DNA from: a virus
Length of the DNA stretch: 64,000 nt
Virus record (IMG/VR): IMGVR_UViG_3300047476_000792
Location: 1 to 64,000 of that record
Direction: 5' to 3' (one strand)
In this document: one piece after another, positions 1,741 through 50,781 of the stretch
Position numbering within the stretch: the stretch's first letter is position 1
How the letters are laid out: each line of letters begins with the position of its first letter
Notes under the pieces: model-generated
What the model was told of the DNA's origin: nothing
Databases searched by the model: none
The model's input: only the letters and a program-made list of their open reading frames with translations
Made by a program: the position numbers and the translations under genes

Positions 1741-2262
1741 ATGAACAAGATTTATGCCGGAATTGGAAGTCGCGCCTGCCCTCCTGAAAAACTCCATGAA
1801 TGTATGCTATATGCAATGAAGTTAGCTATTCTAGGCTATACCCTCCGTTCGGGTGGTGCAGAGGGATGCGATCAAGGATTTGAGGTCGGTTGTACTCTAA
1901 ATTATGGTCAAAAAGAAATATATCTGCCTTGGAAAGATTTTAATAAAAATAAATCCCCTTTATATGATGTATGTGATGATGCATTAAAAATGGCGGAGCG
2001 GTTTCACCCTAATTGGAAAAGATTAACGGAACCTGTTCGAAAACTCATGGCACGTAATTGTTATCAAGTTATGGGAAAAGATTTAAAAACTCCTGTCGAT
2101 TTTATTGTCTGTTGGACTGAAAATGCAGAAGTGAAGGGTGGTACTGCACAAGCCCTCCGTATAGCTCAAGAGTATAATATAAGAGTATATAATATTGCCG
2201 ATCCTAGGCAACAGAATGGGCTTGACAGTTTTATATTATGGAGTAGTGTAGAAAATGAATAA
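1741..2262 (+). CDS. SLOG-family (DprA/TIR-associated-like) nucleotide-binding protein
   Basis: A 173-aa protein with the SLOG Rossmann-like signature: YAGIGSRACP at the N-terminus, LRSGGAEGCDQGFE (phosphate-binding glycines with the acidic residue), and VKGGTAQALRIA near the C-terminus. SLOG proteins bind nucleotides or nucleotide-derived signals; phage members are usually annotated DprA-like. ATG at 1741 is chosen because the family fold starts at once after it (MNKIYAGIGSR); an in-frame upstream start would add nine residues overlapping the preceding small gene. The end overlaps the HNH-ligase gene by 8 nt. Confidence 0.75.
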   Translation: MNKIYAGIGSRACPPEKLHECMLYAMKLAILGYTLRSGGAEGCDQGFEVGCTLNYGQKEIYLPWKDFNKNKSPLYDVCDDALKMAERFHPNWKRLTEPVRKLMARNCYQVMGKDLKTPVDFIVCWTENAEVKGGTAQALRIAQEYNIRVYNIADPRQQNGLDSFILWSSVENE

Positions 2263-3289
2263 TTTATTATTAACCCGTGACGATTTTAGAGAAGGTGTCT
2301 TTCGTAGGGATGATCATACCTGTGTGATGTGCGGCAATCCAGCCCAAGATGCCCACCATATTTTGGAGCGAAGACTTTTTCCTGATGGCGGTTACTACAT
2401 CGACAATGGCGCTTCATTATGTGCTAATTGTCACCTGAAAGCAGAAACAACAGAAATTTCTGTGGAAGAAATTCGTGAAAAATTAGGAATCAAAAAGAAA
2501 GTTCTTCCCCCTCATTTTTATACTGATGTAGTATATACTAAATGGGGTGATACTATTATGTCTAATGGGAGACGTACTCCGGGTGAATTATTTCATGATG
2601 AAAGCGTTCAAAAGATTTTAAAAGCAGGTAACATGCTGGACCGATATACCCAATATGTTAAGTACCCAAGGACGTACCACGTTCCTTGGAGTGGTTACAT
2701 GGGCGAAGATGACCGTATCCAACGTGATATGTCTATTTTCAACAATGAAATAGTCGTCACATCCAAATTAGATGGTGAGAATACTACAATGTATAATGAT
2801 TATATTCATGCTCGTAGTGTGGACGGAAATAGCCATTGGACTCAATCTTGGGTAAAACAATTACATTCTACTATTGCATTTGACATCCCACCTCATTGGC
2901 GAATCTGCGGTGAAAATATGTTCGCAAAACATTCTATAAAATATGATAATCTTAAATCGTATTTTTATGTGTTCAGTATCTGGAATGAGAAGAATATTTG
3001 TCTGTCTTGGGATGACACCCTTGAATGGGCCGAATTATTAGGTTTACAAACAGTTCCGGTTCTTTACCGAGGGACATGGAAAGATAAACCTGAAAAACTT
3101 CATGAGCATATATGGGAGAAAAAGATTGACGAAAGCAAGAATGAAGGCTATGTTATACGAAACGCAGGAGAATTCTCTTATGGTCAATTCCGAACAAATA
3201 CAATGAAGTATGTTCGTAAAAACCATGTAACAACTTCCTCACATTGGAAATTTGAAAAAATAGAACAGAACGAACTAAATTATGAGTGA
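2255..3289 (+). CDS. HNH endonuclease-RNA ligase fusion
   Basis: A 344-aa two-domain protein. Residues about 14-65 are an HNH nuclease: CVMC (C23, C26), AHHI (H34, H35), N51 and CANCH (C56, C59). Residues about 135-335 are an Rnl2-type RNA ligase: nucleotidyl-acceptor motif I TSKLDGEN with K171, motif III FYVFSIW, motif IV EGYVIRN (E297) and motif V MKYVRK (K318). A stand-alone ligase would begin near residue 100, so the HNH is a true N-terminal addition in the same frame. With the P-loop kinase at 4463 and HAD protein at 9542 it could form an RNA-repair set resembling T4 Pnkp/Rnl. What the nuclease domain cuts is unknown. Confidence 0.85.
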   Translation: MNNLLLTRDDFREGVFRRDDHTCVMCGNPAQDAHHILERRLFPDGGYYIDNGASLCANCHLKAETTEISVEEIREKLGIKKKVLPPHFYTDVVYTKWGDTIMSNGRRTPGELFHDESVQKILKAGNMLDRYTQYVKYPRTYHVPWSGYMGEDDRIQRDMSIFNNEIVVTSKLDGENTTMYNDYIHARSVDGNSHWTQSWVKQLHSTIAFDIPPHWRICGENMFAKHSIKYDNLKSYFYVFSIWNEKNICLSWDDTLEWAELLGLQTVPVLYRGTWKDKPEKLHEHIWEKKIDESKNEGYVIRNAGEFSYGQFRTNTMKYVRKNHVTTSSHWKFEKIEQNELNYE

Positions 3290-3572
3290 AGTAATATATG
3301 TGTGTCAGTACTGTGAGAATTCTTGGCCTAGCACTGATAAATGGTACTGTCAATTTTGTGGGACTCCTTATCGAGTAACAAAAACTATTGAAAATAAAGA
3401 TAATATGAATAAAGAATTAAACGGAACCTGGAAACAATTCAAATCATCCATTAACGATGAACAAACAATTGCTCTCTTAAAAAAAATAGACGAAAAAGCT
3501 ACAGAAAATTTAAACAATGCATCTAGAAACTCAACCGTAAAAATTATGAAAAAGAATAAACTAATTCCGTAA
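3282..3572 (+). CDS. zinc-ribbon protein
   Basis: A 96-aa protein with a small N-terminal zinc ribbon (CQYCENSW then CQFCGTPY, two CxxC pairs 14 residues apart) and a charged, probably helical C-terminal half. It overlaps the ligase gene by 8 nt at its start and the minus-strand homing endonuclease by 12 nt at its end. Possibly a nucleic-acid-binding partner of its neighbour; no function can be assigned. Confidence 0.7.
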   Translation: MSEVIYVCQYCENSWPSTDKWYCQFCGTPYRVTKTIENKDNMNKELNGTWKQFKSSINDEQTIALLKKIDEKATENLNNASRNSTVKIMKKNKLIP

Positions 3573-4445
3573 TAATTTATTTCTAAATTCTACAACAACA
3601 TCATTAGCCTCCTCTTCAGTATTAAATCGTCCCAGAAAATGACTTTTTTTAGAAACCTGAACGATTGCAACCCACTTATTTTGAGAAGTGTCAAAACTCA
3701 CTCCTCTATATTTTGAAGTCTTTTTAATGGTTGATTTAGCCCTAGCATCTAATATACAATATATATCATATTTTCTCTCAAGCCTTATTCCCTCAGAATT
3801 ATTATATAAATAATCGCCTAATATTTTAATATCATGGCAATTTCGTATAGTCAATGCGGAATATCCGCTATTTTCTTTATCCACATAGACTGTTCGTATC
3901 TTATATCCAACTATGCCAAGACGAACCATCAGAGCCTCTATATCACACCAATCATATCCCCTACTAGCAGTTATACTAAAAAAGCTGACGCTTTTCCCCT
4001 TTATCGAGAAACACCCATCAGCATCAACCAGTCCTCTCCAAAAGTGTGAATGGTATTGTTCTGGGATATTTGACAGAACCATACTGGGTGATATTCGACT
4101 TTTATCAAGATAACCTAAATTAAATAGCCAATTACCTATTGACTTATCAAACATAATGGCATATAGTGCTGGCCCATCACGAATAACTCTTCCATATTTA
4201 TTTGTATGTGTTTTAGGCTTTATTTCGTGACATATCCACGGTTTTTCAATAGAAAAATTCTTCATTAATTCGAAAAAGTAATAAAAATCCTCTGCATTAT
4301 TATTAAAATATGGATAATATATTTTATGAAATTTCATCTTATGCGCTTTTAAACACCCGTCGCCCCATAAAAAACCCAAACAATATGCTATAATCTCAGG
4401 ATTAGAGAAAGAATTAAAAGTAATATTTGTATTAGCCTTGACCAT
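3561..4445 (-). CDS. LAGLIDADG homing endonuclease with C-terminal AP2 domain
   Basis: A 294-aa protein with two LAGLIDADG helices, AYCLGFLWGDGCL (residues about 20-32) and HFWRGLVDADGCF (about 138-150), enough for a monomeric DNA endonuclease, followed by a C-terminal AP2-type DNA-binding module (STIKKTSKYRGVSFD, W-IVQVSKKSHFLGRFNTEEEA). It lies antisense between two plus-strand genes, as free-standing phage homing endonucleases do. A late-type promoter (TGTAAATA, 6 nt before the ATG) precedes it. AP2 domains are more usual on HNH endonucleases, so the combination with LAGLIDADG deserves notice. Confidence 0.88.
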   Translation of the reverse strand: MVKANTNITFNSFSNPEIIAYCLGFLWGDGCLKAHKMKFHKIYYPYFNNNAEDFYYFFELMKNFSIEKPWICHEIKPKTHTNKYGRVIRDGPALYAIMFDKSIGNWLFNLGYLDKSRISPSMVLSNIPEQYHSHFWRGLVDADGCFSIKGKSVSFFSITASRGYDWCDIEALMVRLGIVGYKIRTVYVDKENSGYSALTIRNCHDIKILGDYLYNNSEGIRLERKYDIYCILDARAKSTIKKTSKYRGVSFDTSQNKWVAIVQVSKKSHFLGRFNTEEEANDVVVEFRNKLLRN

Positions 4446-4462: not shown

Positions 4463-4942
4463 ATGAACAACAAAACAGAAAAAAAATTATATATCCTACA
4501 AGGAATAACAGGGAGTGGTAAAACAACCAAAGCTCATACCTTAACAGATTCCGCGTATATATGCGAAGCGGACCAATATTGGTTAAATTGCGCGGGGGAT
4601 TATTTATTCGTTCCCTCAAAATTAGGCTGCGCACATAAATGGTGTCAAGATAAAGTGCGTCGTTTTATGTCCGAAGATATAAAAACTATCGTATGTTCAA
4701 ATACCAATCTTACGCCTAAAGAACGTAAACCGTATATCGACCTTGCAAAGGAGTATGATTATGATGTAGAACTTGTTCTGCCTGATTCTCCTTGGTTCCT
4801 GGATGTTCTTCCCCGTCTTCGTAATAAAACATTTACTGATGATGATGTATGGACGTTTGTACGGAAAAATACTCACGGGGTTCCTTTCGATTCTGTTAAG
4901 AAAATGATGGAACGCTGGGATGAAACTTTTAATATAGAATGA
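4463..4942 (+). CDS. P-loop kinase, polynucleotide-kinase-like
   Basis: A 159-aa P-loop protein of the AAA_33 / zeta-toxin / Pnk-like group. Walker A is GITGSGKTT (residues about 14-22); ICEADQYW resembles the conserved acidic substrate-site strand; IVCSNTNLTPKERKPYIDLA is the phosphoryl-transfer and lid region typical of NEDD4BP2-like nucleotide or polynucleotide kinases. It stands next to an RNA ligase, supporting a 5'-end-healing role, but substrate (RNA 5'-OH or nucleotide) is inferred. No phosphatase domain is attached; the HAD protein at 9542 may provide it. Confidence 0.72.
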   Translation: MNNKTEKKLYILQGITGSGKTTKAHTLTDSAYICEADQYWLNCAGDYLFVPSKLGCAHKWCQDKVRRFMSEDIKTIVCSNTNLTPKERKPYIDLAKEYDYDVELVLPDSPWFLDVLPRLRNKTFTDDDVWTFVRKNTHGVPFDSVKKMMERWDETFNIE

Positions 4943-5115
4943 AATATCAACCCCCTTTCAACCTAGAGATTTATGAACTAGGTGGGTGGCATAGCATAGA
5001 TGTTATACAAGAATTAGAGGATGCACTTTATATTGCATCCTCTTTTTGTAATAGTCTTGAAGGTTTACCAGAAGAAAGGGTTCGACTAATAGATAACAAT
5101 AATAAAGTTATCTAA
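4939..5115 (+). CDS. small hypothetical protein, 58 aa (possible)
   Basis: The frame starts by a perfect ATGA overlap with the preceding kinase gene and ends four bases into the convergent minus-strand gene. It encodes an acidic 58-aa protein with no recognised motif (begins MKYQPPFNLEIYEL). A strong terminator-like hairpin lies within it, which would cut its message about two thirds of the way through. Either a small gene with an internal attenuator, or a chance frame over the operon's 3' end. Confidence 0.4.
   Translation: MKYQPPFNLEIYELGGWHSIDVIQELEDALYIASSFCNSLEGLPEERVRLIDNNNKVI
5016..5047 (+). terminator. probable rho-independent terminator
   Basis: Perfect 10-bp stem AGAGGATGCA / TGCATCCTCT with an 8-nt loop, followed by a short T run, just where the plus-strand operon meets the convergent minus-strand operon. 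It overlaps the 58-aa frame at 4939. Confidence 0.6.
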
Positions 5116-5654
5116 ACAGTCCAAATCACTTTCTCAGAGTAGGGATTGGAAAATATAAATTTATTAGAAGTAAAGGATTTTCCGATTAAATCGGTTTCCA
5201 GATTTGTATAATATTTTCCAGTTCCTTTTTTTGCATAAAAAATTGTCGTATGTGGTTGGTAGTTCGGATAGGAGTTTCCAGGACAATCTAGTTCGGTTTT
5301 CACTTCTTGATGTAAATCGTGCAAATCCTTAGAAAGTATATCAAACTTCACAACATCAAATTTCTCATTTTCGAATAAAGAGATACCCTTAAATTTAAAT
5401 CTGCAAGGTCGTAAATTTATTGCATTATAGACATCATGCGGTTTATAACTCGGATCGATACCGTAGATCACAGTTCCATGTGTTTCCAATTCGATACCGT
5501 GTCCTGGTTCGTCGTCATATACATCACACGGACATATGGCTTCGTGAAGCTCTGTCATCTCTTCCGATAAGAAAGACATGTCTAGCATGAGGCATGACCA
5601 ACTTCTTATTGCAGAACCCTCTTCTATTATTTTATATAGTTCATCTAATTTCAT
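5112..5654 (-). CDS. 2H phosphoesterase (Acb1-like) with capsid-targeting-like N-terminus
   Basis: A 180-aa protein with the two HxT motifs of the 2H phosphoesterase fold: ETHGTVIYGI (H59, T61) and QPHTTIFYAK (H135, T137). Spacing and length resemble phage Acb1 (T4 57B), which hydrolyses cyclic nucleotide signals of CBASS immunity; LigT/CPDase-type RNA end processing is an alternative. Residues 1-13 (MKLDELYKIIEEG) match the N-terminal peptide of the next three genes and carry an (I)xE site suited to the T4-type prohead protease. It overlaps the neighbouring ART-like gene by four bases. Fold call strong; cyclic-nucleotide substrate inferred. Confidence 0.78.
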   Translation of the reverse strand: MKLDELYKIIEEGSAIRSWSCLMLDMSFLSEEMTELHEAICPCDVYDDEPGHGIELETHGTVIYGIDPSYKPHDVYNAINLRPCRFKFKGISLFENEKFDVVKFDILSKDLHDLHQEVKTELDCPGNSYPNYQPHTTIFYAKKGTGKYYTNLETDLIGKSFTSNKFIFSNPYSEKVIWTV

Positions 5655-6874
5655 TGTATAATTCTTTTCATTTCTATAACATCTTCGGGTGGTATGCGAA
5701 TTTCCCGCTCGGCTACGAGGAATTCGGAAGCATTCGTAGTTTTTATACGAGCTTCTACAATTCCTATATCACTGTAATCTATCTTAGAAAGCTTTTCAAC
5801 CCACTTATCTCCTTGTGTGTCCATAAACACAGGGTTTCGATAGACTGGAGAATCCATATACCACAGTGCAGTTAAATAAAACTCAATAGCATCTGCGGAA
5901 CTTTTCGGAGGAAACTCGCTACCCTTACGCCTTTTATACTGTTTTACAGTATTCTCAAAATTCGACGTTTCAGTGTTAGCAGAATACTTTTTAATATAAT
6001 CTATGAGTTTATCCATTCTATATTTTCCATTCGCAATAAGCCACATATGCTTCAGTGCAATCATTATCGATTGGCAAATATGTAAAGACAGAGAGAAGCT
6101 TATATCTCCTTTATAAGATGCTCCACCCAAGCCTCCTTTATCCGTTTTTGTATATTCTTTTTGAAAACCATTTTGAAATATATTTTTTATATCTATAGAT
6201 GCATGGTAGGCAATTTCTTCTTCTTGTAGATCTTCGGGGCGGAAGTTTCTTGAATCGTAATATTCACCTCTATTCCATTTGGTTAGAGTATTTATACGTT
6301 CTACGAATTCCTTAACCTCTTCTGTTTTATTTACTACTTCCTTTATTATAGCGAATATAGGAAGGAGACGATCCAATTCTTCAGCAGTAAATCCATAACC
6401 AACAGCACGATTCTCAAATTCAGTTATATTGTTTATTATATTTCTTAATGAATAGTTACTTTTTTCTTTGTCCAATACATCTATTATATCTCTTAGGATA
6501 TTCGGTATATATTCCGATATAAGCCTATATCTAAAATTTCCATCAGTAGATTCTCTAGCCATCTTTAGATAATTATCATAGTTAGCAAGCTCTTTACTGA
6601 ATACCGTTCTATATATATTATCTTCGAACATTCTGTTATGAAGTTCCTTGACAGACTTTATAAAATATGAATCAATATCCAATGCATCGATATCATTAGA
6701 AATAAAATCTTCTTCTTGGAGAATCTTCTGTATGAATTGTTGAGTCAATGCGCCTATCTCTTTAAGCTTCTTACTAATAATATTAAATCCATTTTCATAT
6801 GATTCAGCCGGAAGTTTGGCCTCTTTTATGATATCCAAACGAATCAATGATTGTAATAATTCTTGTAGTTTCAT
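5651..6874 (-). CDS. ADP-ribosyltransferase-like protein with capsid-targeting-like N-terminus
   Basis: A 407-aa protein. The first 19 residues (MKLQELLQSLIRLDIIKEA) look like a capsid-targeting peptide with a gp21-type site IKE|A. Residues about 25-220 are helical with no recognised family. The C-terminal half resembles an ART fold: IAYHASIDIKNIFQNGF, GGLGGASYKGDISFSLS, and VAEREIRIPPEDVI, which could supply the H/R, S-x-S and E positions. T4 Alt is a packaged ADP-ribosyltransferase with such a tag, so a similar injected enzyme is plausible. ART assignment rests on motif reading alone. Confidence 0.55.
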   Translation of the reverse strand: MKLQELLQSLIRLDIIKEAKLPAESYENGFNIISKKLKEIGALTQQFIQKILQEEDFISNDIDALDIDSYFIKSVKELHNRMFEDNIYRTVFSKELANYDNYLKMARESTDGNFRYRLISEYIPNILRDIIDVLDKEKSNYSLRNIINNITEFENRAVGYGFTAEELDRLLPIFAIIKEVVNKTEEVKEFVERINTLTKWNRGEYYDSRNFRPEDLQEEEIAYHASIDIKNIFQNGFQKEYTKTDKGGLGGASYKGDISFSLSLHICQSIMIALKHMWLIANGKYRMDKLIDYIKKYSANTETSNFENTVKQYKRRKGSEFPPKSSADAIEFYLTALWYMDSPVYRNPVFMDTQGDKWVEKLSKIDYSDIGIVEARIKTTNASEFLVAEREIRIPPEDVIEMKRIIQ

Positions 6875-7263
6875 AAAATCTCTTCTTCTACGGATATATA
6901 CTCTGGTGGTATGGCTTTGAATGCTACATAACTAAATCCATCGAATACTATATTATATATATTCATACTATTCACAGGAATAGCCACCTTTAACATAGTT
7001 AGCGACTCATCTTCATCATATTCATCTCCTAACCAGTTCATAAGTGCATCCTCTGCCGTATCTTTATCCTCGAAAAGATATATAGCATCTCGGTCTTCTC
7101 CTATTTTGTTGGAACGCTCCCCTATTGCTGGAACCAGCCCCTTTCTCATAATACTTGGAAGATTTTCATGTCTAGTTATATGAAAAAACTCCATTTTATC
7201 TATGGTTTCTTCCTTTATAGTTATCGGTATATTGATTAAATCAAACAGTTCTTGTAGTTTCAT
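6871..7263 (-). CDS. small ART-fold protein with capsid-targeting-like N-terminus
   Basis: A 130-aa protein starting MKLQELFDLINIPITIKEE, whose first seven residues are nearly identical to the neighbour and whose IKE site falls at the same residue (18). The rest reads like a compact ART-fold domain: FFHITRHENLPSIMRKGLVP (His plus the typical helix after strand 1), AIYLFEDKDTAED (Tyr region) and KAIPPEYISVEEE (final strand and Glu). This pattern recalls DarT/KptA-like H-Y-E ARTs. It overlaps the larger ART-like gene by four bases. Target (DNA, RNA or protein) unknown. Confidence 0.6.
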   Translation of the reverse strand: MKLQELFDLINIPITIKEETIDKMEFFHITRHENLPSIMRKGLVPAIGERSNKIGEDRDAIYLFEDKDTAEDALMNWLGDEYDEDESLTMLKVAIPVNSMNIYNIVFDGFSYVAFKAIPPEYISVEEEIL

Positions 7264-7265
7264 AA

Positions 7266-8099
7266 TTATCCCCCACTTGCAAATATTCTTGCATTATTTT
7301 CCATACGGGATGCAACTCCGCTTTTAGCTTTTTTAGCTTTTTCGTATTCCTTATTCGCAAGGTATTCTTTTGCTGCCTCTGGGAATTTACGACTCTTTAG
7401 CAAGAGTCGTGCCTTCGGAGAACCTGATAAATCCCCTCGGAAATAACCATCAAGAATAGCTATTTTCATATTTTTAGAAAATTTATTAAAATCTGCACCG
7501 AAATGTCTCTGGATAAGTGCTAATTTATTCTTTATATCGACCCTAAATATATCTTCTATTTCAGAATCAGTTAAGGTTTTTCCTTCAAACTTCTCCACTT
7601 CTTCAGGCTTTACGAGATGGCCAATGCCTATAGTTAAATTACCATATATATCTTTGTACATGGTATTATAGACACCTTCATGCTTCTTTATATATTTAAA
7701 GGCATCGCTGATAAAATCATCCGTTTTTATTTTTTCTGGATATTTTATAGTAGATAAATCTTGAATAAATTTATCTGTCAAAGGTGTTTCTTGTTTGGTT
7801 GCCGCTTTTGGAAACTCTATTTTACTAATTTGTTTAATAAGAGCATCCACCAATGGCGTAGCCATCTTCTTCGGAACCTCTTGTTGAATCGCTTGTAAGG
7901 TCTGTGGAGGAGTCTCTTTAGCCTTCTGTGTTACTATCTCTCGGAGCTTCGGTATTGTATAGTTATAATGCGTCACACCTAGCAAAAGAGCCATTGCAAT
8001 AAGACTTCTAGGATTCTGTAGATAACTTAAAACCGACTCTTCTATAATATCTGAATCACTCATATCAGTTAGTATATTATAAAGCTCATTAAATTTCAT
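7266..8099 (-). CDS. T4-type lysozyme (GH24) with tag and hydrophobic N-terminal segment
   Basis: A 277-aa protein. The C-terminal domain is a T4-type lysozyme: KKHEG, MYKDIYG and LTIGIGHL give E141, D150 and T156, the same spacing as T4 E11-D20-T26. It hydrolyses peptidoglycan. Ahead of it are a capsid-targeting-like peptide (MKFNELYNIL, with DIIEES at 17-22), a hydrophobic stretch at about 32-50 (SLIAMALLLG) and a linker. ATG at 8099 is preferred over one nine codons upstream because a late-type promoter (TGTAAATA, 5 nt, ATG) sits directly before it and its N-terminus aligns with the three downstream genes. It may be a virion-borne lysozyme rather than a free endolysin. Confidence 0.85.
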   Translation of the reverse strand: MKFNELYNILTDMSDSDIIEESVLSYLQNPRSLIAMALLLGVTHYNYTIPKLREIVTQKAKETPPQTLQAIQQEVPKKMATPLVDALIKQISKIEFPKAATKQETPLTDKFIQDLSTIKYPEKIKTDDFISDAFKYIKKHEGVYNTMYKDIYGNLTIGIGHLVKPEEVEKFEGKTLTDSEIEDIFRVDIKNKLALIQRHFGADFNKFSKNMKIAILDGYFRGDLSGSPKARLLLKSRKFPEAAKEYLANKEYEKAKKAKSGVASRMENNARIFASGG

Positions 8100-8112
8100 A
8101 ATACTATTTACA
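8100..8112 (-). promoter_or_regulatory. late-type leaderless promoter for the tagged lysozyme operon
   Basis: Minus-strand TGTAAATA (8112-8105) is followed by GTATT and the ATG at 8099. The same bases read on the other strand supply TTTACA, the -35 element of the divergent plus-strand promoter. Confidence 0.5.
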
Positions 8113-8152
8113 AACAAAAAAGACATAACTAAATAACATAGTTATGTCTTTT
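8107..8152 (+). promoter_or_regulatory. sigma70-like promoter with palindrome across the -10 box
   Basis: TTTACA (8107-8112), a 17-nt spacer, TAAATA (8130-8135), then 8 nt to ATG 8144. A perfect 14-bp inverted repeat (arms 8118-8131 and 8139-8152, 7-nt loop) is centred on the -10 and includes the start codon in its right arm. It could be an operator; read on either strand as RNA it also resembles a terminator hairpin with a T run. Confidence 0.5.
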
Positions 8153-17264: not shown

Positions 17265-17966
17265 TTAAAAAACTCCTGGACCTTCTAAATTGTTTTCTAC
17301 AGAAGGGCTGACTAAACCTCTAGTATCTCTACCAAAGTGTTGTTTCAATAATCTAAACACTTCTACAATATTTTGATCATTAACATCTGCAATATTTATG
17401 TTCATACTGGGTGAGCCGTATAACAGCGCATTTATAATTATACGCACCCAATATACTCGCTTGCCGTTATCCAGACGTTCTTCTTCAGGAAGAGAATTAA
17501 AATATTTAATTTTATCTTTTATAGACTTTCCTTTGATTTTAGGCTGTTCTGTCCATTTACTAGCAAGTCCTTCATATTTATCCATCACCCATTCGACAAA
17601 GCCTAAAATAGGTAAAATCTTTTTAGTCTTTTCGAAATAATCTGCAATCATTTCAAATGGTATCTCTCTTTTATCTACACGAAGTTTGAGATTATGAACA
17701 TCTTTAGAATCTTTATTGAAATATAATGCACGAATAGCCAATTTAGCAAGTTCCATCTCCTCTGGGAATACAGGCTTTTCTGGCATGGTAGGCATTGGTT
17801 CTTCTATATCCCCGGAGAGATCGTCAGGATTATCCCCAGGAGAGTCCATAGGCCCAGCAGAAGACTCTTCAGGCGAGCCAGTTTGTTCTTCATCATCTGT
17901 AGGAGGTTTTGGTGGACCTGCCTCTATGATAAGATTATATATATATTTGTCGAATTCTGAGATCAT
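17265..17966 (-). CDS. tagged protein with proline-rich disordered region
   Basis: A 233-aa protein starting MISEFDKYIYNLIIEAG, a capsid-targeting-like peptide with an IIE|A site at residue 15. Residues 17-75 are acidic, Pro/Ser/Gly-rich and probably disordered (PPKPPTDDEEQ). Residues about 75-230 look globular and helical and are not recognised. It lies one base downstream of another tagged gene, suggesting both are late head-associated products. Confidence 0.65.
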   Translation of the reverse strand: MISEFDKYIYNLIIEAGPPKPPTDDEEQTGSPEESSAGPMDSPGDNPDDLSGDIEEPMPTMPEKPVFPEEMELAKLAIRALYFNKDSKDVHNLKLRVDKREIPFEMIADYFEKTKKILPILGFVEWVMDKYEGLASKWTEQPKIKGKSIKDKIKYFNSLPEEERLDNGKRVYWVRIIINALLYGSPSMNINIADVNDQNIVEVFRLLKQHFGRDTRGLVSPSVENNLEGPGVF

Positions 17967-17967: not shown

Positions 17968-20490
17968 TTATTGTTGTGGAGATGCTAATAATTGTGCAAC
18001 CGTTGTCCATGCCTTCGGATCTTTGATAGATTGTTCAAGATTTTTAAAATTTTTAGGATCTGCCATATGTTGCCTAAATCCTTCTATATTGTTAGGGTCG
18101 GATTGAAATAACTCGAATGCAGTCGGATCATTTAAAATAGCCCCGTAATCGAGAGGTTGACTAGAAGTTCCAGTAGGAGTTTTGGATGCGGTCGGTCCTT
18201 TAGAGAATTGCATTTGCACACCTCCTGCGACCTTTTTAGGTGCCGTAGAAGATGAATTTGCTGAAGGTGAAGTTCCTGCACCTCCTCGTTGAGAGAGGCC
18301 CCCTTGTCCCATATTGCCCAATCCTTCTTGGAATATCTTCTTAATAAATGCATCAAACTTAGTTGTCATATCTCTATTTATACTAGATAAATCCAATTCC
18401 ATTTGACCTTGTTTTTTTAAATCTTCATAATCAGAAGGCGGTATCAACTTATTCAATATATCTTCTAAATCAAATATAGTTTTGACACCTTCTAGATATT
18501 CGTGTTCGAATTGATCACGTAAATCGATGAGTGCCTTAGTAGAAGATGATATTATTCCATGATCTATTATATAATCTAAAGTTTCTTGATTTATTGAAAT
18601 ATCTATTTTTAATACAGGCTTTCTGCTTTTTGTACTCTCATTTCTAAACCAGAAACCGCCAACACCTGCCGTCCCTCCAAATTTTCGAGGAGTCATTTGC
18701 TCAGGCACACATATAGAAAGAGAAAATAAATCAAAAGAAATATCATCTGGTAGCTCGTATTTCTTTTCTACGAATCTACCTAGCTTATCGTAAATTTCAT
18801 AAGTTAGAGAAACTATGTTATTGATTTGTTCCATAGGACCGACCAATTCTCTAACATATCCGCCATATCCAGCTTCTATCTGTGGAACAAACGAAGGAAT
18901 AATGAATTGTCCTAATTCATCTTCTGTATTTCCTTTTTTCTCAACAAATGTCTGTAAATCTTCGACTTCTTCTTGTGCGGCCTTTTCGTATTCCACATCA
19001 TAAAAATCACAGATAGTCTTATTCATAAGCATTCGAAGCTCTGTAAATCCGACTTCTTCATCCATATAAGCCTCCCCTACAAAATTAGTCAATATTTTAA
19101 CAAAATAATCTTGTACATCACTTCGTAATTTCTCGTCACGAAAATGTCCACCATCTTCTGGACCATAATATTCACCATAATCGTGAGCACTAAAGTGTTT
19201 ATCAATAACAAAGTGGAGTTTATCATCTTCTCCTATGCTAGCATATAATGTGTCTTCTCTTTCCCAGCCATATCTAGTAGGTAACGATTTTTTAATTTCC
19301 ACAGACCCCCACTTTGGAGAGCTTTTTATTTTTTCTAAAATATTACCTGGAATGATATATGCTAATTTTAAATCCGATCCGTTAATATCGTATTCTATAT
19401 CAAAGTAATCCCCAAAAGAATCTAAACCAAATACGTATTCATAGATAGGATCAGGATTGAACTCATCCCGCTGTTCATCCCACCAATGTTCTTCTTGTTG
19501 TTCATAACTTCCCCTTACATCGTCTTCCCAATCACTCTCATCTTCTTTGTTATGTTCGTATGATATATCTTTACCCCAAATATCCTTAATGGTTTTATCT
19601 ATTTCAGTACCCCAATCCTCGTACGAACCTCCCCGAAGAGTTAAAGTATTTTCCCAATCTATATTTGAGGTGTCTTGGCGCTTCGCCCAATCTATGACTT
19701 GGGTTTTAAAATCTTCAGCCATTGTAAATTTATTATTTTTATAAACCTTCAATGACGGAACTGCTAAAGAGTTTCCATCTTCATCATAAACACTTCTTAT
19801 TCTTATACGAGCTTGTGGAATTATACCGTCTATACCTCTGGCAGAATCTTTAAAAATTTCATCTTTTTGTAAATCATCGATTTTTTGTAAATCTTCCTCT
19901 GTTACTACATATGCAATTCCAGCATTTAAACTAGCATCTGCAAGAGCACAGTAAAAATAATCATTTCCTTCTGAATGGCACGAAGTCCATTGATGGTCAC
20001 TCATTCGTACAACATCTATAGGCATTCTGGAATATATAACATAATATGAACTCTTTTGTGCATCCAAATATGCTTGTTGTAAATTCGTAACTTTCAACAA
20101 TTTATCAATATTTCCTAACTGATTCTGGAAACCTAAAATGGTATAATTGTCTATTTCGGATTTATTCGTAGCATCTTTAATATATCTCTCTATAGCCTGC
20201 TTTCTCTGACTTAGTAACTTTCCAATTCGTATTGGGTTTTTCTTATCCTTATCAGTTATTTTATATCCTATCCATTTTTCAAAATCCAATTCATAATCCT
20301 CTATTATGCTATTGCGTATTTTATCATGATATTCGGATACCTTTTTCATAGGTTCAACTATACGTTTTTTATCACCAAATATATGATCAAACGGTGCCAC
20401 GCCTTGCAAAAAAGCAGGAATTTTATTTGCCACATTATAAGACACCTCCTGTAAAACTAATTTATTTTTAACAAAATCTTTGAAATTCAT
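17968..20490 (-). CDS. large tagged protein of unknown function, 840 aa
   Basis: Begins MNFKDFVKNKLVLQEVS, a capsid-targeting-like peptide with an LQE|V site. Residues about 145-215 contain a segment with conserved-looking RMPIDVVRMSDHQWTSCHS and YVVTEEDL; I cannot name the family. Later parts include an acidic middle and a Gly/Ser/Thr-rich linker near residues 735-790 before a helical C-terminus. ATG at 20490 is preferred over upstream Met codons because GATAAATA stands 5 nt before it and this start aligns the tag with the other tagged proteins; an ATG at 20514 has an AAGGA eight bases upstream and remains possible. Confidence 0.7.
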   Translation of the reverse strand: MNFKDFVKNKLVLQEVSYNVANKIPAFLQGVAPFDHIFGDKKRIVEPMKKVSEYHDKIRNSIIEDYELDFEKWIGYKITDKDKKNPIRIGKLLSQRKQAIERYIKDATNKSEIDNYTILGFQNQLGNIDKLLKVTNLQQAYLDAQKSSYYVIYSRMPIDVVRMSDHQWTSCHSEGNDYFYCALADASLNAGIAYVVTEEDLQKIDDLQKDEIFKDSARGIDGIIPQARIRIRSVYDEDGNSLAVPSLKVYKNNKFTMAEDFKTQVIDWAKRQDTSNIDWENTLTLRGGSYEDWGTEIDKTIKDIWGKDISYEHNKEDESDWEDDVRGSYEQQEEHWWDEQRDEFNPDPIYEYVFGLDSFGDYFDIEYDINGSDLKLAYIIPGNILEKIKSSPKWGSVEIKKSLPTRYGWEREDTLYASIGEDDKLHFVIDKHFSAHDYGEYYGPEDGGHFRDEKLRSDVQDYFVKILTNFVGEAYMDEEVGFTELRMLMNKTICDFYDVEYEKAAQEEVEDLQTFVEKKGNTEDELGQFIIPSFVPQIEAGYGGYVRELVGPMEQINNIVSLTYEIYDKLGRFVEKKYELPDDISFDLFSLSICVPEQMTPRKFGGTAGVGGFWFRNESTKSRKPVLKIDISINQETLDYIIDHGIISSSTKALIDLRDQFEHEYLEGVKTIFDLEDILNKLIPPSDYEDLKKQGQMELDLSSINRDMTTKFDAFIKKIFQEGLGNMGQGGLSQRGGAGTSPSANSSSTAPKKVAGGVQMQFSKGPTASKTPTGTSSQPLDYGAILNDPTAFELFQSDPNNIEGFRQHMADPKNFKNLEQSIKDPKAWTTVAQLLASPQQ

Positions 20491-22848: not shown

Positions 22849-23772
22849 GTGATATTAATTTTAGGAAAAAACGGATATATTAGTAAAAGATTTCAAGCAT
22901 TCTTTGATTATAAGGGAATTAAATACGAAGCAGTATCTTTTCGTCCAAGTTTCGGCACGGACACTAGAACATTTCACACAGTAATTAAATCCGAACCATA
23001 TAGATTAATCATCAACTGTATAGGTTATACCGGGAGTCCAAACGTAGACGCATGTGAGGATAATAAAGAGGAAGCATTGTATGCTAATACGTTATTAGCA
23101 GAGCATGTAGCGGAAATGTGTAAGAGAATAAAGGTTCCTATGATACATGTCTCTAGTGGATGTATATATGAAAGTGCTTATTTCATACCTTCTATTGGTC
23201 CTGCATTTAAGAAAACATTATGGGGAACGCCCTTTGATGAAGAGTACGAGCCTAATTTTTCATTTAAGCAAAAAAATTGTTCTTGGTATTCTGGTACAAA
23301 AGCTCTTGGAGAAACTCTTGTAAGAAAAACATGGGATAAACATTATATATGCCGTTTAAGAATGCCATTTAATCATATAGACGAAGAAAAGAATTATATC
23401 AGTAAACTTCTAAAATATCCTAAAGTTTGGTCGATTACAAATTCATTAACTAATACAGATGAATTTGTTCAATCTTGTTATAATTTATATAATTATGGTG
23501 CAGAATATGGAACATATAATATGACTAACCCCGGACCTATAGATGCAGAAGATGTTCTTAATCTTGCAGCAGAATATGGAATTAAAAAGGATGTGTATGA
23601 GTATTTTGAATCACAAGAAGAATTCGATAAAGTTATTAAAACTCCGAGAAGTAATTGCGTATTGATTTCTGACAAATTAGCAAAAGCAGGTTGTGGTATG
23701 TTACCCGTTAGAGAGTCGTTAAGAAAATGTTTCGAATCATGGAACAAAAAAGAAGAGAAGTTATTCTGGTAA
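22849..23772 (+). CDS. RmlD-like sugar reductase/epimerase (SDR)
   Basis: A 307-aa short-chain dehydrogenase close to dTDP-4-dehydrorhamnose reductase. N-terminal MILILGKNGYISKRF is the Rossmann glycine motif, INCIGYTGSPNVDACE and HVSSGCIYES follow, and WYSGTKALGE gives the catalytic Tyr-x-x-x-Lys. Starts at GTG; the ATG two bases earlier is out of frame. With the next two sugar genes it probably makes a deoxy-sugar nucleotide for glycan decoration. The exact product is uncertain because no RmlC epimerase is seen. Confidence 0.75.
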   Translation: MILILGKNGYISKRFQAFFDYKGIKYEAVSFRPSFGTDTRTFHTVIKSEPYRLIINCIGYTGSPNVDACEDNKEEALYANTLLAEHVAEMCKRIKVPMIHVSSGCIYESAYFIPSIGPAFKKTLWGTPFDEEYEPNFSFKQKNCSWYSGTKALGETLVRKTWDKHYICRLRMPFNHIDEEKNYISKLLKYPKVWSITNSLTNTDEFVQSCYNLYNYGAEYGTYNMTNPGPIDAEDVLNLAAEYGIKKDVYEYFESQEEFDKVIKTPRSNCVLISDKLAKAGCGMLPVRESLRKCFESWNKKEEKLFW

Positions 23773-23775
23773 AAT

Positions 23776-23964
23776 ATGAAATTTACAATATCAAAAGAAA
23801 GATGTATAGAATTAGCTAAATTAGGCGAAGAGTATAATATACAAGCGGGTGCTCCTAGTTTCGGGTGGTTTTGTCGTAGATGTCAATCGGATGTAATTGA
23901 TAAGAAGTGTAATTGTACTACAAGTCCGAGTCCATGGGAACCTAAACAATATGAAAAAATATAA
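23776..23964 (+). CDS. small zinc-binding protein, 62 aa
   Basis: Short protein with a CRRCQSD...CNC cysteine set (residues about 33-48), probably a single zinc knuckle. It lies three bases after the RmlD-like gene and overlaps the start of the RmlB gene by 14 bases. Function unknown. Confidence 0.6.
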   Translation: MKFTISKERCIELAKLGEEYNIQAGAPSFGWFCRRCQSDVIDKKCNCTTSPSPWEPKQYEKI

Positions 23965-24937
23965 TATTTTGGTAACAGGTGGATGTGGTTTCATTGGATG
24001 GAACTTCATTCGTCGTTTATATGAAAATCAGGATAAGATAGGATTTAATAAAATAATAAATCTTGATAATCTTTCGTATTCTGCAATAAATCCCCGAAAT
24101 ATGCCCTATTATGACAATAGGTATCACTTCATAAAACGTGATATCAATAAAATACACAGTTTATTTGAAATGTATGGCATAGATTTGGTAGTAAACTTTG
24201 CTGCACAAACACATGTCGATAATTCCATAGAATCAAGTAAAGTATTCGTAGAAACTAATACCCTTGGTGCATTTAACTTAATGGATGAAGCTCGAAAGTA
24301 TTGGACGAAAAATTCTATAGATGGAAAGTTTATTCAAATTTCGACTGACGAAGTATTTGGTTCTGTGGAAGATAATAATGGACAGCCATTTACTGAAATC
24401 ATACCATATCATCCAAACAACCCATATTCTGCCAGCAAAGCCTCCGCAGAATTGATGGTCAAATCATTTATTCATACCTACGGCTTTCCTGCAATCGTTA
24501 CTAATTGCTCAAATAACTACGGTCCAGGTCAGCATAAGGAGAAACTAATACCAAAGTCCATAGAGTGTTATAAACATGGCTTAGATGTGCCTATATACGG
24601 CGACGGGAAGCAGTCTAGGGATTGGATATATGTGGATGATCATTGTGACGGGATTATTGATGCAATAACCAAAGGAAAGGTAGGAGAAAGTTATCTATTC
24701 GGAACAAATAAAACTGTATATAATATTGATCTGGTTACTAATATTCTGAAGAAGTGTTATGATTTCTGTCCATCTTTTACTGGTATAAAATACGTTAAGG
24801 ATCGTCCTGGACATGATAGAACATATCGAATAGATTATAGTAAAGCAGAAAGAGAACTAGGATGGACACCTAGAACTGACCTAGATAAAGGACTTGCATA
24901 TACTGTTGATTGGTATATAAATAAGTCTAATGAATAA
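23951..24937 (+). CDS. rmlB: dTDP-glucose 4,6-dehydratase
   Basis: A 328-aa extended SDR with NILVTGGCGFIGWNFI (NAD site), FAAQTHVDNSIESS, ISTDEVFGSV (Thr-Asp-Glu of the dehydratase) and YSASKASAELM (Tyr-x-x-x-Lys), plus GPGQHKEKLIPKSI. This is the full RmlB pattern, converting dTDP-glucose to dTDP-4-keto-6-deoxyglucose. Start at 23951 because the Rossmann strand begins directly after it. It overlaps RmlA by eight bases. Confidence 0.93.
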   Translation: MKKYNILVTGGCGFIGWNFIRRLYENQDKIGFNKIINLDNLSYSAINPRNMPYYDNRYHFIKRDINKIHSLFEMYGIDLVVNFAAQTHVDNSIESSKVFVETNTLGAFNLMDEARKYWTKNSIDGKFIQISTDEVFGSVEDNNGQPFTEIIPYHPNNPYSASKASAELMVKSFIHTYGFPAIVTNCSNNYGPGQHKEKLIPKSIECYKHGLDVPIYGDGKQSRDWIYVDDHCDGIIDAITKGKVGESYLFGTNKTVYNIDLVTNILKKCYDFCPSFTGIKYVKDRPGHDRTYRIDYSKAERELGWTPRTDLDKGLAYTVDWYINKSNE

Positions 24938-25688
24938 AAAGTATGGAATTTTGTTGGCGGGAGGAAAGGCTACTAGACTATTTCCAATAACACAATTTGG
25001 TATATCTAAGCAACTTTTACCAGTGTTTAATAAACCTATGATAGAATTTCCTCTCCGTACTTTACAAGATATGGGGGTTACTGATATTTTAATCATAAAC
25101 GCCGATAAAGATCAACAGAAGATGTTTAAGGATTATCTAGGTGATGGCTCTCAATATGGATTTAATTTAGAATATACTATTCAAGAGAAACCTAATGGAA
25201 TTGCGGAGGCATTTATTATTGCAGAAGAATTCCTCAAAGATGCTAAAGATGTAATTCTTATATTAGGGGACAATTCATTCATAGGAATTGATGATTTCTC
25301 TGATACAAAACCTAATACTATATTCACATATAGAGTTAAGAATCCATCTGCATATGGGGTGGTAGAAGTCGATGAGCTAAGTAGATTAGTTAGAATTGTA
25401 GAGAAGCCTAAAGAATATGTCAGCGAAAATGCAGTAGTAGGACTATATCATTTGTCTACAGAAGCCATAAATATTGCAAAAAATTTAAAACCTTCTACAA
25501 GAGGAGAGCTTGAAATTGTAGATGTCATCCGAGAATTGCACAACAGAGATGGGATTAAAATACAAGAAATCGATTCTGGATTTTGGTTTGATTGTGGAAC
25601 CCATGAGGATCTTTTAGACTGTGCAAATCTTATTAGAACGATAGAACATAGAACCCATAAAACGACAGGGTTAAGGAAAATAGCTTGA
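24930..25688 (+). CDS. rmlA: glucose-1-phosphate thymidylyltransferase
   Basis: A 252-aa RmlA: ILLAGGKATRLFPITQFGISKQLLPV is the full nucleotide-binding signature region (here seen at residues 7-31), ILILGDNSF carries the metal-binding Asp, and RIVEKP and GFWFDCGTHEDL complete the family. It joins glucose-1-phosphate to dTTP. About 40 residues shorter than bacterial RmlA at the C-terminus, lacking the allosteric-site helices, so perhaps free of feedback inhibition by dTDP-rhamnose; that last point is inference. Confidence 0.92.
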   Translation: MNKKYGILLAGGKATRLFPITQFGISKQLLPVFNKPMIEFPLRTLQDMGVTDILIINADKDQQKMFKDYLGDGSQYGFNLEYTIQEKPNGIAEAFIIAEEFLKDAKDVILILGDNSFIGIDDFSDTKPNTIFTYRVKNPSAYGVVEVDELSRLVRIVEKPKEYVSENAVVGLYHLSTEAINIAKNLKPSTRGELEIVDVIRELHNRDGIKIQEIDSGFWFDCGTHEDLLDCANLIRTIEHRTHKTTGLRKIA

Positions 25689-31592: not shown

Positions 31593-31610
31593 AAACTTTA
31601 TTTATGAACG
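31586..31610 (-). promoter_or_regulatory. palindrome containing late-type promoter, a stop and a start codon
   Basis: Perfect 10-bp inverted repeat (31586-31595 and 31601-31610, 5-nt loop). On the minus strand it contains the stop of the upstream gene (TAA), CATAAATA (31606-31599), then 6 nt and ATG 31592. Geometry matches the palindromes centred on -10 boxes elsewhere. On the plus strand it is followed by six T, so it could also stop antisense transcripts. Confidence 0.5.
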
Positions 31611-32222
31611 TTTTTTGCGTTTTCTACGTCTTTTTCCTATAATATAAGGAACCCGTGCATCGGATGTATCATAGAGACCGTCATTTCCCAGAACAGATGC
31701 AACAGATATATCTTCTTTTATGTTCTTCTTTTTCTTAGGTTTCCTCTGAGGTTTAGCTGGATTGTCGAATTCCGCACCTATTGCGGCAAATAGTTGATCA
31801 TAATTGGCATCCCGTGAAAACTTCTCAGGAACTACAGAAATGTCATATAACATTTCTAAATCCCCCAATGCATTTTTCTGTTTATCGGTTAAACTTTGTG
31901 ATGCAGTATATTTTAGTTGTGGTGTATATTGTGTCACATCTTTATTAATCTTAATCCAACCCCTATTAAGGAGATAACCAATCGCTAGAATCATTTCAGA
32001 AGAATGATCTGTCTTGTCTGATATATTCTTTTCATAGAAATCTGTAGTATAATTAACTATGCTTTTTATTATTCTTATTGCATCAGAGCCGTGCTGTTGC
32101 CAGCGAACAGGCCGAACAATGCCAGAAGGACTTACCCAAAATCCATAAGGGCATTCATCAGGAAGTTCAGCAAACGACTCTGCAAGTATTTTTCTTATGA
32201 ATCTATCGAAATTTTCTGTCAT
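31602..32222 (-). CDS. tagged basic protein, 206 aa
   Basis: Starts MTENFDRFIRKILAESF, a capsid-targeting-like peptide with an LAE|S site at residue 15. The middle (residues about 20-140) contains FWVSPSGIVRPV and a helical region; the C-terminus is strongly basic (KPQRKPKKKKNIKE and GKRRRKRKKRS), suiting DNA binding inside a head. ATG at 32222 is chosen because a TAAATA late-type element stands 7 nt before it; earlier in-frame Met codons would fall within the divergent promoter. Confidence 0.65.
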   Translation of the reverse strand: MTENFDRFIRKILAESFAELPDECPYGFWVSPSGIVRPVRWQQHGSDAIRIIKSIVNYTTDFYEKNISDKTDHSSEMILAIGYLLNRGWIKINKDVTQYTPQLKYTASQSLTDKQKNALGDLEMLYDISVVPEKFSRDANYDQLFAAIGAEFDNPAKPQRKPKKKKNIKEDISVASVLGNDGLYDTSDARVPYIIGKRRRKRKKRS

Positions 32223-35243: not shown

Positions 35244-35978
35244 ATGTGGGACGAAATTGAAGAAGATGGAATAATATTAGATGAGCGTGAGGAACTTGAA
35301 ATAGTTCTTGATGATATTCCTAAAAAACGTACTCGCCGTAAGAAGAATGAAGGTTCTCCTAACGAAGATTATGTTAATAAAGATGAGATGTGGCAGGAGT
35401 TGTACAATTATTACAAATCTTTAGGATCTTCGTATGATTGGGATCTACAAAAGATTAATGATAGACATAGCTTTCCTAAAATATCAGATAGATTAACTAC
35501 TATTATAAATGATATTGCAACAAAAATGGGATATCGTGCTAATTTTTGTAGGTATTCTTGGTTGGATGAGATGATTGGCGATGCGATATTAAAAATGATC
35601 AAAGCTGTTCGAGATTGCTCATTTAAATGTTATACTACAGCAGAAGTTATTGCAGTTGATAATTTCAACAACACTGTGACCTTTTATGATAAAAAGGGAC
35701 AAGTTCAGAATAAACCATTCGAAGATACTGATACTTATTTCAAGGGAGATGATCATAAGGATTATATAAAGTTCAAAGCCAATCCTTTTGGATATTTTTC
35801 ACGAATAACGAGTCATTCTTATCTTAATCGAATAAAGAAAGAGAAGGATGCAGAGAAGACCAAGCGGGCGTTTCAAGAAGAAACGTGGGAACGTCTATAT
35901 TCTAATGAGAATTTTAGAAATGTCCGTAGGCAGAAAATCATTGATTCTGATGAGAATGAGGCTATATTTGATGAATGA
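35244..35978 (+). CDS. 55: late-transcription sigma factor, gp55-like
   Basis: A 244-aa protein matching T4 gp55: KISDRLTTIINDIATKMGYR and FCRYSWLDEMIGDAILKMIK (sigma region 2-like helices), then NPFGYFSRITSHSYLNRIKKEKD. T4 gp55 is 185 aa; here the N-terminal extension is longer and about 50 residues are inserted between the two conserved blocks (around YTTAEVIAVDNF to GDDHKDYIKF). It should guide host RNA polymerase to late promoters of TATAAATA type, fitting the TAAATA elements found before minus-strand genes. Confidence 0.85.
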   Translation: MWDEIEEDGIILDEREELEIVLDDIPKKRTRRKKNEGSPNEDYVNKDEMWQELYNYYKSLGSSYDWDLQKINDRHSFPKISDRLTTIINDIATKMGYRANFCRYSWLDEMIGDAILKMIKAVRDCSFKCYTTAEVIAVDNFNNTVTFYDKKGQVQNKPFEDTDTYFKGDDHKDYIKFKANPFGYFSRITSHSYLNRIKKEKDAEKTKRAFQEETWERLYSNENFRNVRRQKIIDSDENEAIFDE

Positions 35979-36262
35979 GAAAATGGTTAGCAGATGAGAT
36001 ATTCTCTTGGTATTATGGCGATACAAAGCTATGCGAGGAAAGACTGAACGTCTTTACCAGACATCTTCCTTCGTGGTATTTAAGATTCTTAGTGTGGAGT
36101 TTACGAGATATTAGGTTTGATCCTAATTACGGATTTTTATATTATTGGTCCAAGAATGTCAAACAAACGTATCCTGAATTGCTCCCTCATGAAATTGTTG
36201 GGGTTGAACCGCTGAGTGGCCCAGTAGGTATTGTATTTGCCCTTAAATATTATTATGAATAA
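35975..36262 (+). CDS. hypothetical protein, 95 aa
   Basis: Not recognised. Aromatic-rich 95-aa protein (LPSWYLRFLVWSLRDIRF) overlapping gp55 by four bases and gp47 by eight. Sits in the position where T4 has small genes between 55 and 47. Confidence 0.6.
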   Translation: MRKWLADEIFSWYYGDTKLCEERLNVFTRHLPSWYLRFLVWSLRDIRFDPNYGFLYYWSKNVKQTYPELLPHEIVGVEPLSGPVGIVFALKYYYE

Positions 36263-40578: not shown

Positions 40579-40975
40579 AGGTGGACAAGACTACCGTCCA
40601 AACTATTACTGTCCAACATGTCATGCATATAATAGGATTCCCCATGAAAAGGGGTGTGTGGATGTGAAAGTGAGTATATGTGGAACCGCTCGACTCCCCT
40701 CTAAAAATGCAGATAAAAAAGTATGGCAAGATTTCTATGAGAAGTTTGTATTAAAAAACGATATAAAATATATACAGACCTTGAAAAAATCAAAAAAATC
40801 TAAATCATATAGGGAATCTAGTAGGTACGAGATTCTTCAAGAAGATGAAAGATACTTGAAAATGTCTTTGGACGAATTACTTAAAAGAGAAAAATTCTTG
40901 AAAATGACTAAGCAAACTGATAAATTAAAGAAATGTCAGAAATTCTTAACCGCTTTAAAGAGAAAACAGCATTAG
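40547..40975 (+). CDS. zinc-knuckle, lysine-rich protein
   Basis: A 142-aa protein with one CPTC...CVD(V)..C cysteine set near the N-terminus (YYCPTCHAYNRIPHEKGC) and a lysine-rich helical C-terminal half. It overlaps the next glycosyltransferase by 43 bases, more than usual. Possibly nucleic-acid binding. Confidence 0.6.
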   Translation: MKKLSTQQGHKGGQDYRPNYYCPTCHAYNRIPHEKGCVDVKVSICGTARLPSKNADKKVWQDFYEKFVLKNDIKYIQTLKKSKKSKSYRESSRYEILQEDERYLKMSLDELLKREKFLKMTKQTDKLKKCQKFLTALKRKQH

Positions 40976-41778
40976 CAATAATAACCTGCAACAGAGAACA
41001 TGTATTTAAAAAATGTATCGACAGCATTGACCGTAATGCTGTCGGACAGATTTATGTCATTAATGCTGGGGATAGATATAAGGAATATCCTAAGGATGTA
41101 ATAGTCATTCAGCCTAAAAGAAATCCATCGCCAGTCGGAATTAATAAAAACATAGCCCTTCGTGAAATGAAGAATGCGGGTTATGAATTTTTATTTTTGA
41201 TGGAGGACGATGTAAAGATTAAAGATAATAAAGCCTTTGAAGTATATATCGAAACTGCAATGGATTCTGGTATATGGGGAGGACAACTGGCATTTGGATT
41301 ACATGGGGGATTTGCTGCGGGTAATATAAACGAAGATGGAACACCTAAGAAAAAGCTTACGGCCCAATATACTAAACATAAGGTAGATTTTTATAAACAC
41401 GGTCCACATGCATTTGCAATATATCATGCAAATGTGTTGGCACATATTGGATATTTCGATGAACGATATATCAATTCTGCTGAACATTTGGATCAATATC
41501 TTATGACATATTATAAGAATCTTGGTATGCCGTTTTGGTGGTTCCCGGATGTTTATGATTCATTCAATTATCTAGAAGATGTCGATGAAAATTTGAATGA
41601 AAGTGTTATCCGTAAACAGGAAGACTTCCCGAAGAATTTCTCGTATAGTTGGGGACTATTCAAAGAAAAGCATAGATTCTTCCCACACGAAGTTCCTTCA
41701 TCCAGTCCTGAAGAGGCACATGAACGGATGGAATTCTTAGAAAAGAACTATTCGCAAAAACATTTACTAAATTCATAG
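40933..41778 (+). CDS. GT-A glycosyltransferase (family 2-like)
   Basis: A 281-aa glycosyltransferase. TALAIITCNREHVFKKCIDS is the N-terminal nucleotide-binding strand and helix, PVGINKNIALREM follows, and FLFLMEDDVKI holds the DxD-type metal site; YFDERYINSAEHLDQYLM fits the catalytic-base region. It likely transfers a sugar from a nucleotide donor. First of several transferases in this island; the acceptor is unknown. Confidence 0.8.
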   Translation: MSEILNRFKEKTALAIITCNREHVFKKCIDSIDRNAVGQIYVINAGDRYKEYPKDVIVIQPKRNPSPVGINKNIALREMKNAGYEFLFLMEDDVKIKDNKAFEVYIETAMDSGIWGGQLAFGLHGGFAAGNINEDGTPKKKLTAQYTKHKVDFYKHGPHAFAIYHANVLAHIGYFDERYINSAEHLDQYLMTYYKNLGMPFWWFPDVYDSFNYLEDVDENLNESVIRKQEDFPKNFSYSWGLFKEKHRFFPHEVPSSSPEEAHERMEFLEKNYSQKHLLNS

Positions 41779-41806
41779 TTGCATATTACTCTTAGCTGCT
41801 TATATT
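41779..41806 (+). promoter_or_regulatory. sigma70-like leaderless promoter
   Basis: TTGCAT (41779-41784), 16 nt, TATATT (41801-41806), 6 nt, ATG 41813. Confidence 0.6.
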
Positions 41807-41812
41807 AAGTGT

Positions 41813-44493: not shown

Positions 44494-44503
44494 TATAGAA
44501 AAT

Positions 44504-46309: not shown

Positions 46310-46374
46310 TTTTTCGAAGATTCAAGAAGATTTCTTTAGAGAAATGAATATATGTGAGTTAAATAAGATTCAAT

Positions 46375-46611: not shown

Positions 46612-46616
46612 TTGAC

Positions 46617-49565: not shown

Positions 49566-49569
49566 AAAT

Positions 49570-50774: not shown

Positions 50775-50781
50775 TAAAAAT

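Follow-up and report, generated by a model that had tools for sequence, protein, structure and literature searches.

A phage 2H phosphoesterase with a T4-type N-terminal tag as a candidate injected counter-defence enzyme

Introduction

In phage T4, the internal proteins IPI-III and Alt are unrelated proteins that share a short N-terminal tag with aromatic and hydrophobic positions and an L/I-x-E end. The first 10 residues of IPIII, its capsid targeting sequence (CTS), are enough to send cargo into the head, and the gp21 prohead protease cuts after L/I-x-E (PMC9026906). The 2H fold is found in the anti-CBASS enzyme Acb1 (T4 57B and the FBB1 and BCSR5 proteins), as well as in LigT/ThpR, the plant Appr>p CPDase and Usb1. 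The structure of Acb1 shows an HxT catalytic tetrad, the stacking residues Y12, W74, F107 and W147, an adenine contact by E141 and a C-terminal lid (PMC9117128).

For the 2H domains of injected polyvalent proteins, Iyer 2017 proposes a role as RNases or in the breakdown of defence nucleotides (PMC5512222); for the 2H enzymes of jumbo phages, Iyer 2021 proposes the removal of cyclic phosphates as a step in RNA repair (PMC7824862). Thus, an injected 2H counter-defence enzyme is not new in kind. The protein described here resembles those domains in its proposed injection, its proposed signal countering or RNA processing and its occasional fusions to ADP-ribosyltransferase (ART) or other domains. 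It differs in standing alone in most cases and in its explicit T4-type tag, which a Tad3 family protein shares in relatives, features that the accessible text of both papers does not describe. What is new, as far as the literature searched shows, is the explicit tag and the fact that a Tad3 family protein bears it too. That search found no papers on virion-packaged anti-CBASS proteins or on Tad3 and, among the papers listed for PTm1, a cultured relative, none suitable on its virion proteins.

Results

The window analysed here is a 64,000-nucleotide stretch of a 90-kb viral record from IMG/VR. On its minus strand, at 5112-5654 with the stop codon included, lies an ATG-initiated gene for a protein of 180 aa. 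The two HxT motifs reported in the initial annotation are at the residues named there: H59-G-T61 (5472-5480, minus strand) and H135-T-T137 (5244-5252, minus strand), the second inside Y129-P-N-Y-Q-P-H-T-T. An IMG/VR scan using the protein returned 37 relatives, 26 of which (30-55% identical to the query) were taken into an alignment. None of the four catalytic residues varies among these 26 homologues, so the HxT pairs are not chance, and the family signature F94-E-N-E-K-F-D-V-x-K103 (5346-5375, minus strand) is invariant except at x. By profile scan, the family has 229 viral relatives in IMG/VR and is absent from 84,980 bacterial and archaeal genomes, which identifies it as a phage-specific 2H lineage.

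An AlphaFold2 model built with the family alignment (pLDDT 89, pTM 0.83) leaves residues 1-13 unstructured (pLDDT <50) and otherwise shows the duplicated beta-alpha fold of the 2H superfamily, with Z up to 14.0 over 151 residues. Together with the invariant HxT pair, this fold bears out the original assignment as a 2H phosphoesterase. The best match in the PDB is the Arabidopsis Appr>p CPDase (Z 14.0), followed by human Usb1 (Z 13.5), E. coli LigT (Z 12.9), the FBB1 and BCSR5 Acb1 proteins (Z 12.0-12.1) and the poxvirus cGAMP PDE (Z 12.0). Structure prediction had been suggested as a check on likeness to Acb1; Acb1 is indeed matched (Z 12.0), but LigT, Usb1 and CPDase match about equally well (12.9-14.0), and the fold comparison was dropped as a means of separating Acb1 from LigT/CPDase, the Z scores of 12-14 being almost tied. 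The terminal strand of the model aligns with that of LigT/ThpR, CPDase and Usb1, at equal or slightly higher Z than for Acb1, although sequence identity to these proteins is 6-16% and the window protein has no family-level Pfam match.

Sequence profiles rank Acb1 and archaeal LigT-like proteins about level. The nearest solved structures by profile are Acb1 from BCSR5 (2e-3) and FBB1 (5.5e-3), just before archaeal LigT-like proteins (5.9e-3), and hhalign of the family against Acb1 gives 96.4% (E 1.1e-9), a real profile similarity over the second motif. In Pfam, the window protein scores better with 2_5_RNA_ligase2 (5.7e-5) than with Acb1 (PF23474; 1.7e-3), both below cut-offs, the Acb1 score being 18.5 against a required 27 bits. 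All 26 aligned members match both families, the matches to PF23474 being weak (best 4.4e-9). The LigT/ThpR family (PF02834) has no match in the window protein and is matched by 9/26 homologues, and the CPDase profile (PF07823) is matched weakly by 2/26 (best 0.019).

Alignment of the family with six Acb1 proteins, including T4 57B, divides the Acb1 active site into kept and lost parts. The HxT/HxT tetrad and its [YF]xxYxPHxT context are kept; the W74 position is an invariant F, and the F107 position is Y or F in 25/26. By contrast, the Y12 position is L, A or V, W147 is missing and no conserved acidic residue stands in for E141, leaving the base-stacking set only partly kept. The C-terminal lid is missing from both alignment and model, with a predicted terminal beta strand in its place, and the FENEKFDVxK signature is a further difference from Acb1. 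The original reading as an Acb1-like, anti-CBASS enzyme is therefore sustained in its tetrad and its aromatic W74 and F107 positions and fails at Y12, E141, W147, the lid and the Pfam cut-off. The protein should not be filed as Acb1. It may nevertheless act like Acb1, given the real profile similarity over the second motif, and the anti-CBASS reading is one of two live readings of the enzyme. In its full form, an Acb1-like enzyme would be packaged, injected and would cut cyclic di- and trinucleotides 3' of adenosine before phage gene expression. We regard this form as possible but less likely than not: the profile matches and the aromatic positions speak for it, as does a co-tagged Tad3 family protein in relatives, which suggests that anti-signalling proteins travel with the 2H enzyme, whereas the lost residues, the absent lid, the score below the Pfam cut-off and a fold that is at least as close to CPDase, Usb1 and LigT as it is to Acb1 speak against it. 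No T4 57B-type Acb1 accompanies the 2H gene within the 2H loci examined.

The neighbourhood of the gene holds as much RNA-end-processing as anti-signalling machinery. Convergent with the 2H gene lies an untagged P-loop kinase gene of the AAA_33 type (4463-4942, plus strand; PHROG polynucleotide kinase, 1.1e-12), and in the four nearest relatives that were checked (L003-L006) a polynucleotide-kinase-like gene is likewise the convergent neighbour of the 2H gene. An untagged gene with HNH and RNA_ligase domains (2255-3289, plus strand; PF09414, 1.6e-33) lies 1.8 kb from the 2H gene and is a possible RNA-repair partner. An RNA ligase is co-directional with and within 4 kb of the 2H gene in four relatives (L015, L017, L023 and L024), and by hand count lies near it in 5/11 distinct ligase-bearing records. 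A gene at 3561-4445 (minus strand), between the RNA ligase and kinase genes, and another at 45386-46309 (minus strand) resemble homing endonucleases of the LAGLIDADG type by eye, the first with an AP2-like tail.

Directly upstream of the 2H gene on the minus strand are three genes whose products carry similar N-terminal tags. The first (5651-6874; tag MKLQELLQSLIRLDIIKE) encodes a 407-aa protein with no family match that is ART-like by eye only; a tagged homologue, 45% identical, lies directly beside the 2H gene of another relative (L121:4427-5623). The second (6871-7263; tag MKLQELFDLINIPITIKE) encodes a 130-aa protein modelled, with modest confidence (pLDDT 73), as an ADP-ribosyltransferase fold. 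The top match of this model is the NAD-binding lobe of the tRNA 2'-phosphotransferase Tpt1/KptA (Z 10.4), tied with the uncharacterised DUF952 (Z 9.6), with toxins at 8.5 or less. The 130-aa protein has no PF01885 match, and Tpt1 proper (PF01885) is in none of 12 records searched. Relatives of the 130-aa protein are fused to a nucleotidyltransferase-like domain, judged by eye, in L114, L115 and L117, and one in L116 is a tagged solo protein (MSFKEFYWIKEQ). The third gene (7266-8099; tag MKFNELYNILTDMSDSDIIEE) is lysozyme-like (PF00959, 2.3e-7), and its homologues adjoin the 2H gene in L003, L005, L006 and L121.

Two relatives also belong on the RNA-end side. L010 has the 2H enzyme, a tRNA_lig_CPD-like protein (a second 2H-like protein), ART-PolyVal and a CCA-adding enzyme as separate tagged genes of one operon (L010:4989-8417). 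In L032 a single polypeptide combines the 2H domain, an ART-like region and a CCA-adding enzyme (L032:4989-7577); its ART-like region was recognised by eye and scores weakly (PARP E 0.089). These arrangements fit the other live reading, in which a CPDase/LigT-like enzyme would heal the RNA ends of tRNAs cut by host nucleases together with the phage kinase, the ligase and the Tpt1-like ART, with packaging as a head start. We give this reading slightly less than an even chance. The top structural match to Appr>p CPDase and that of the co-tagged neighbour to Tpt1 favour it, as do the adjacent kinase and nearby ligases, and an earlier paper proposes the same role for jumbo-phage 2H domains (PMC7824862). 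However, the lead of CPDase over other 2H folds is less than 1 Z unit, a PF01885 match is missing, and ligase proximity is weak evidence because large T4-like phages commonly have RNA ligases; moreover, domains joined in a polyvalent protein do not have to belong to one pathway. The kinase and ligase are also untagged and, in the window clade, on the opposite strand to the 2H gene. By its tag, the 2H enzyme belongs among the proteins presumed to be packaged and apart from these untagged repair enzymes, and those of the window may not work together with it.

The tag of the 2H protein, MKLDELYKIIEE (5619-5654, minus strand), resembles a capsid targeting sequence and ends in a predicted prohead-protease site, I10-E11-E12/G13. 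MK[LF]xEL[LFY] opens each of four minus-strand genes in a row (5112-8126); this start occurs in 4/131 genes of the 90-kb record, all adjacent, against 0.003 expected from shuffles, and is absent from the other 127. The tag peptide that the initial annotation had pointed out is thus real and common to four adjacent genes. In all four, I-x-E follows (IEE/G, IKE/A, IKE/E and IEE/S). Among 60 distinct homologue N-termini, [ILVMF]xE stands just before the enzyme in 58 (shuffles 24.7, maximum 37 in 2000), and [LI]xE occurs in 53 of these extensions (shuffles 16.6). The T4 internal-protein tag, MKTYQEFIAEA, resembles MKHIKLFEEFVNEA of 2H relatives. A strict T4-like regular expression missed longer tags and was dropped; tags were counted instead by scoring proteins against the 2H tag of the same genome, with shuffled controls, and by an exact motif test. 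Cultured phages of different types (Maribacter Colly_1, Microbacterium Count and Rhodococcus Weasels2) have homologues without such a tag, and the T4 late promoter TATAAATA shows no excess (11 found, 14.5 expected).

Other CTS-like N-termini were seen in the window phage, at 17265-17966, 17968-20490 and 31602-32222 (all minus strand; MISEFDKYIYNLIIEAG, MNFKDFVKNKLVLQEVS and MTENFDRFIRKILAESF) and at 83109-83546 and 85470-86123 of the record (MTPEFDQFCESLIREY and MNYNELFRSVLLELAQ). They form a second tag style, and the genes at 17265-17966 and 17968-20490 are conserved in G002. In the isolated Klebsiella phage Eowyn, a Tad3-related protein (L200:355-1491) starts with MSYQSYFLSEAKLAG, itself CTS-like.

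In relatives, the tag of the 2H protein extends to many other proteins, some of them encoded among the head genes. In the 256-kb genome G021, 24 other, unrelated proteins bear the tag of its 2H protein, MKHIKLFEEFVTE (0.5 expected). About 14 tagged genes stand in a row around the 2H gene (G021:C1 193196-200292, covering the L027, L028 and L021 loci), including a Tad3 anti-Thoeris family protein, a GNAT, a zeta-like kinase and the 2H enzyme itself; this run is a candidate packaged counter-defence island. The tagged Tad3 family protein (PF25185, 8e-19) is one gene from the 2H gene, with close homologues in L021, L024 and L028. Another tagged gene of G021 (53445-53837) lies directly upstream of the genes for the S77 prohead protease and the Gp23-type major capsid protein (MCP); T4 has its gp67/gp68 core genes at the position just upstream of protease and MCP. 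G019 has seven tagged proteins, one of them (265274-266503) encoded between the protease and MCP genes. A full-length Gp23 MCP is present in eight relatives, and the S77 protease in 8/8 of these.

The 90-kb record of the window's own phage is a fragment that lacks the prohead protease and a complete MCP, so packaging in this phage is inferred from relatives. This gap, and the lack of a tag on T4 57B, are what favour the view that the tag is not head-targeting: it would be an inherited N-terminal helix or a docking peptide, on an enzyme made after infection like T4 Acb1. We consider this improbable, as the same tag stands on dozens of unrelated proteins in one phage, some encoded inside the head-gene cluster, and obeys the T4 L/I-x-E rule. 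The claim that the enzyme looks packaged for injection thus appears well supported by comparison, through the tag statistics and the T4 CTS rule.

Elsewhere in the window, a 95-aa ORF (35975-36262, plus strand) ends in 34 residues that share 53% identity with the conserved N-terminal region of the Gp23 MCP, which corresponds to the EF-Tu/Lit-activating 'Gol' segment in T4. The ORF is solitary among replication and repair genes and is also found in the sister record G001. Judged by eye, Rml-like deoxysugar genes together with an extended series of glycosyltransferase-like and radical-SAM-like ORFs (22849-25688 and 40933-51970, plus strand) make up a large sugar-modification island.

Discussion

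Our results support a model in which the 2H enzyme is probably an injected counter-defence protein. From the reading frame, its motifs and fold, the tag statistics and the T4-type head genes of relatives, we infer packaging, cleavage, ejection, catalysis and substrate. Packaging of the family in the head and its ejection are likely. The 12-residue N-terminal tag would target a metal-independent 2H phosphoesterase into the phage head, where the prohead protease probably clips the tag after I-E-E. The enzyme would then be ejected into the cell with the DNA, the lysozyme, the Tpt1-like ADP-ribosyltransferase-fold protein and the 407-aa protein, to serve as an immediate counter-defence before phage gene expression. 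Its two HxT motifs would provide the acid and the base that act on a phosphodiester adjoining the 2'-oxygen of a ribose.

What that phosphodiester belongs to can be ranked. The substrate may well be the 2',3'-cyclic phosphate on host-cut RNA or tRNA, or the ADP-ribose relative Appr>p, a choice that falls slightly short of an even bet and is slightly favoured by the companion with the Tpt1-like fold, the fusion to a CCA-adding enzyme and the neighbourhood of kinase and ligase. A CBASS-type nucleotide alarm signal made by the host is possible though less probable; the likeness of the second motif to that of Acb1 and the tag on the Tad3 family protein put it second. Something else altogether is unlikely. 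Taken as a whole, the proposal of a capsid-delivered enzyme that destroys a host nucleotide alarm signal before phage gene expression, as part of a co-packaged counter-immunity set that includes a tagged Tad3 in relatives, is one that we hold as possible but less likely than not.

The proposed system is analogous to the T4 internal proteins and Alt in its tag, in its tagged ADP-ribosyltransferase-fold companions and in the T4-type capsid and S77 protease of the relatives. It differs in its cargo, a 2H phosphoesterase, and in the far larger number of tagged proteins in relatives, such as the 24 others in G021. T4 Acb1 also differs, being untagged, whereas the window protein bears a head-type tag.

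If this model is correct, the injected proteins of uncultured T4-like phages could be listed from sequence by their N-terminal address tag. The tagged set would comprise the 2H phosphoesterase, ADP-ribosyltransferase-fold proteins, GNATs, lysozymes, a CCA-adding enzyme and a Tad3 family protein. For many phage proteins whose function is unknown, this would yield a prediction that can be tested, and counter-defence in these phages would shift to the first moments of infection.
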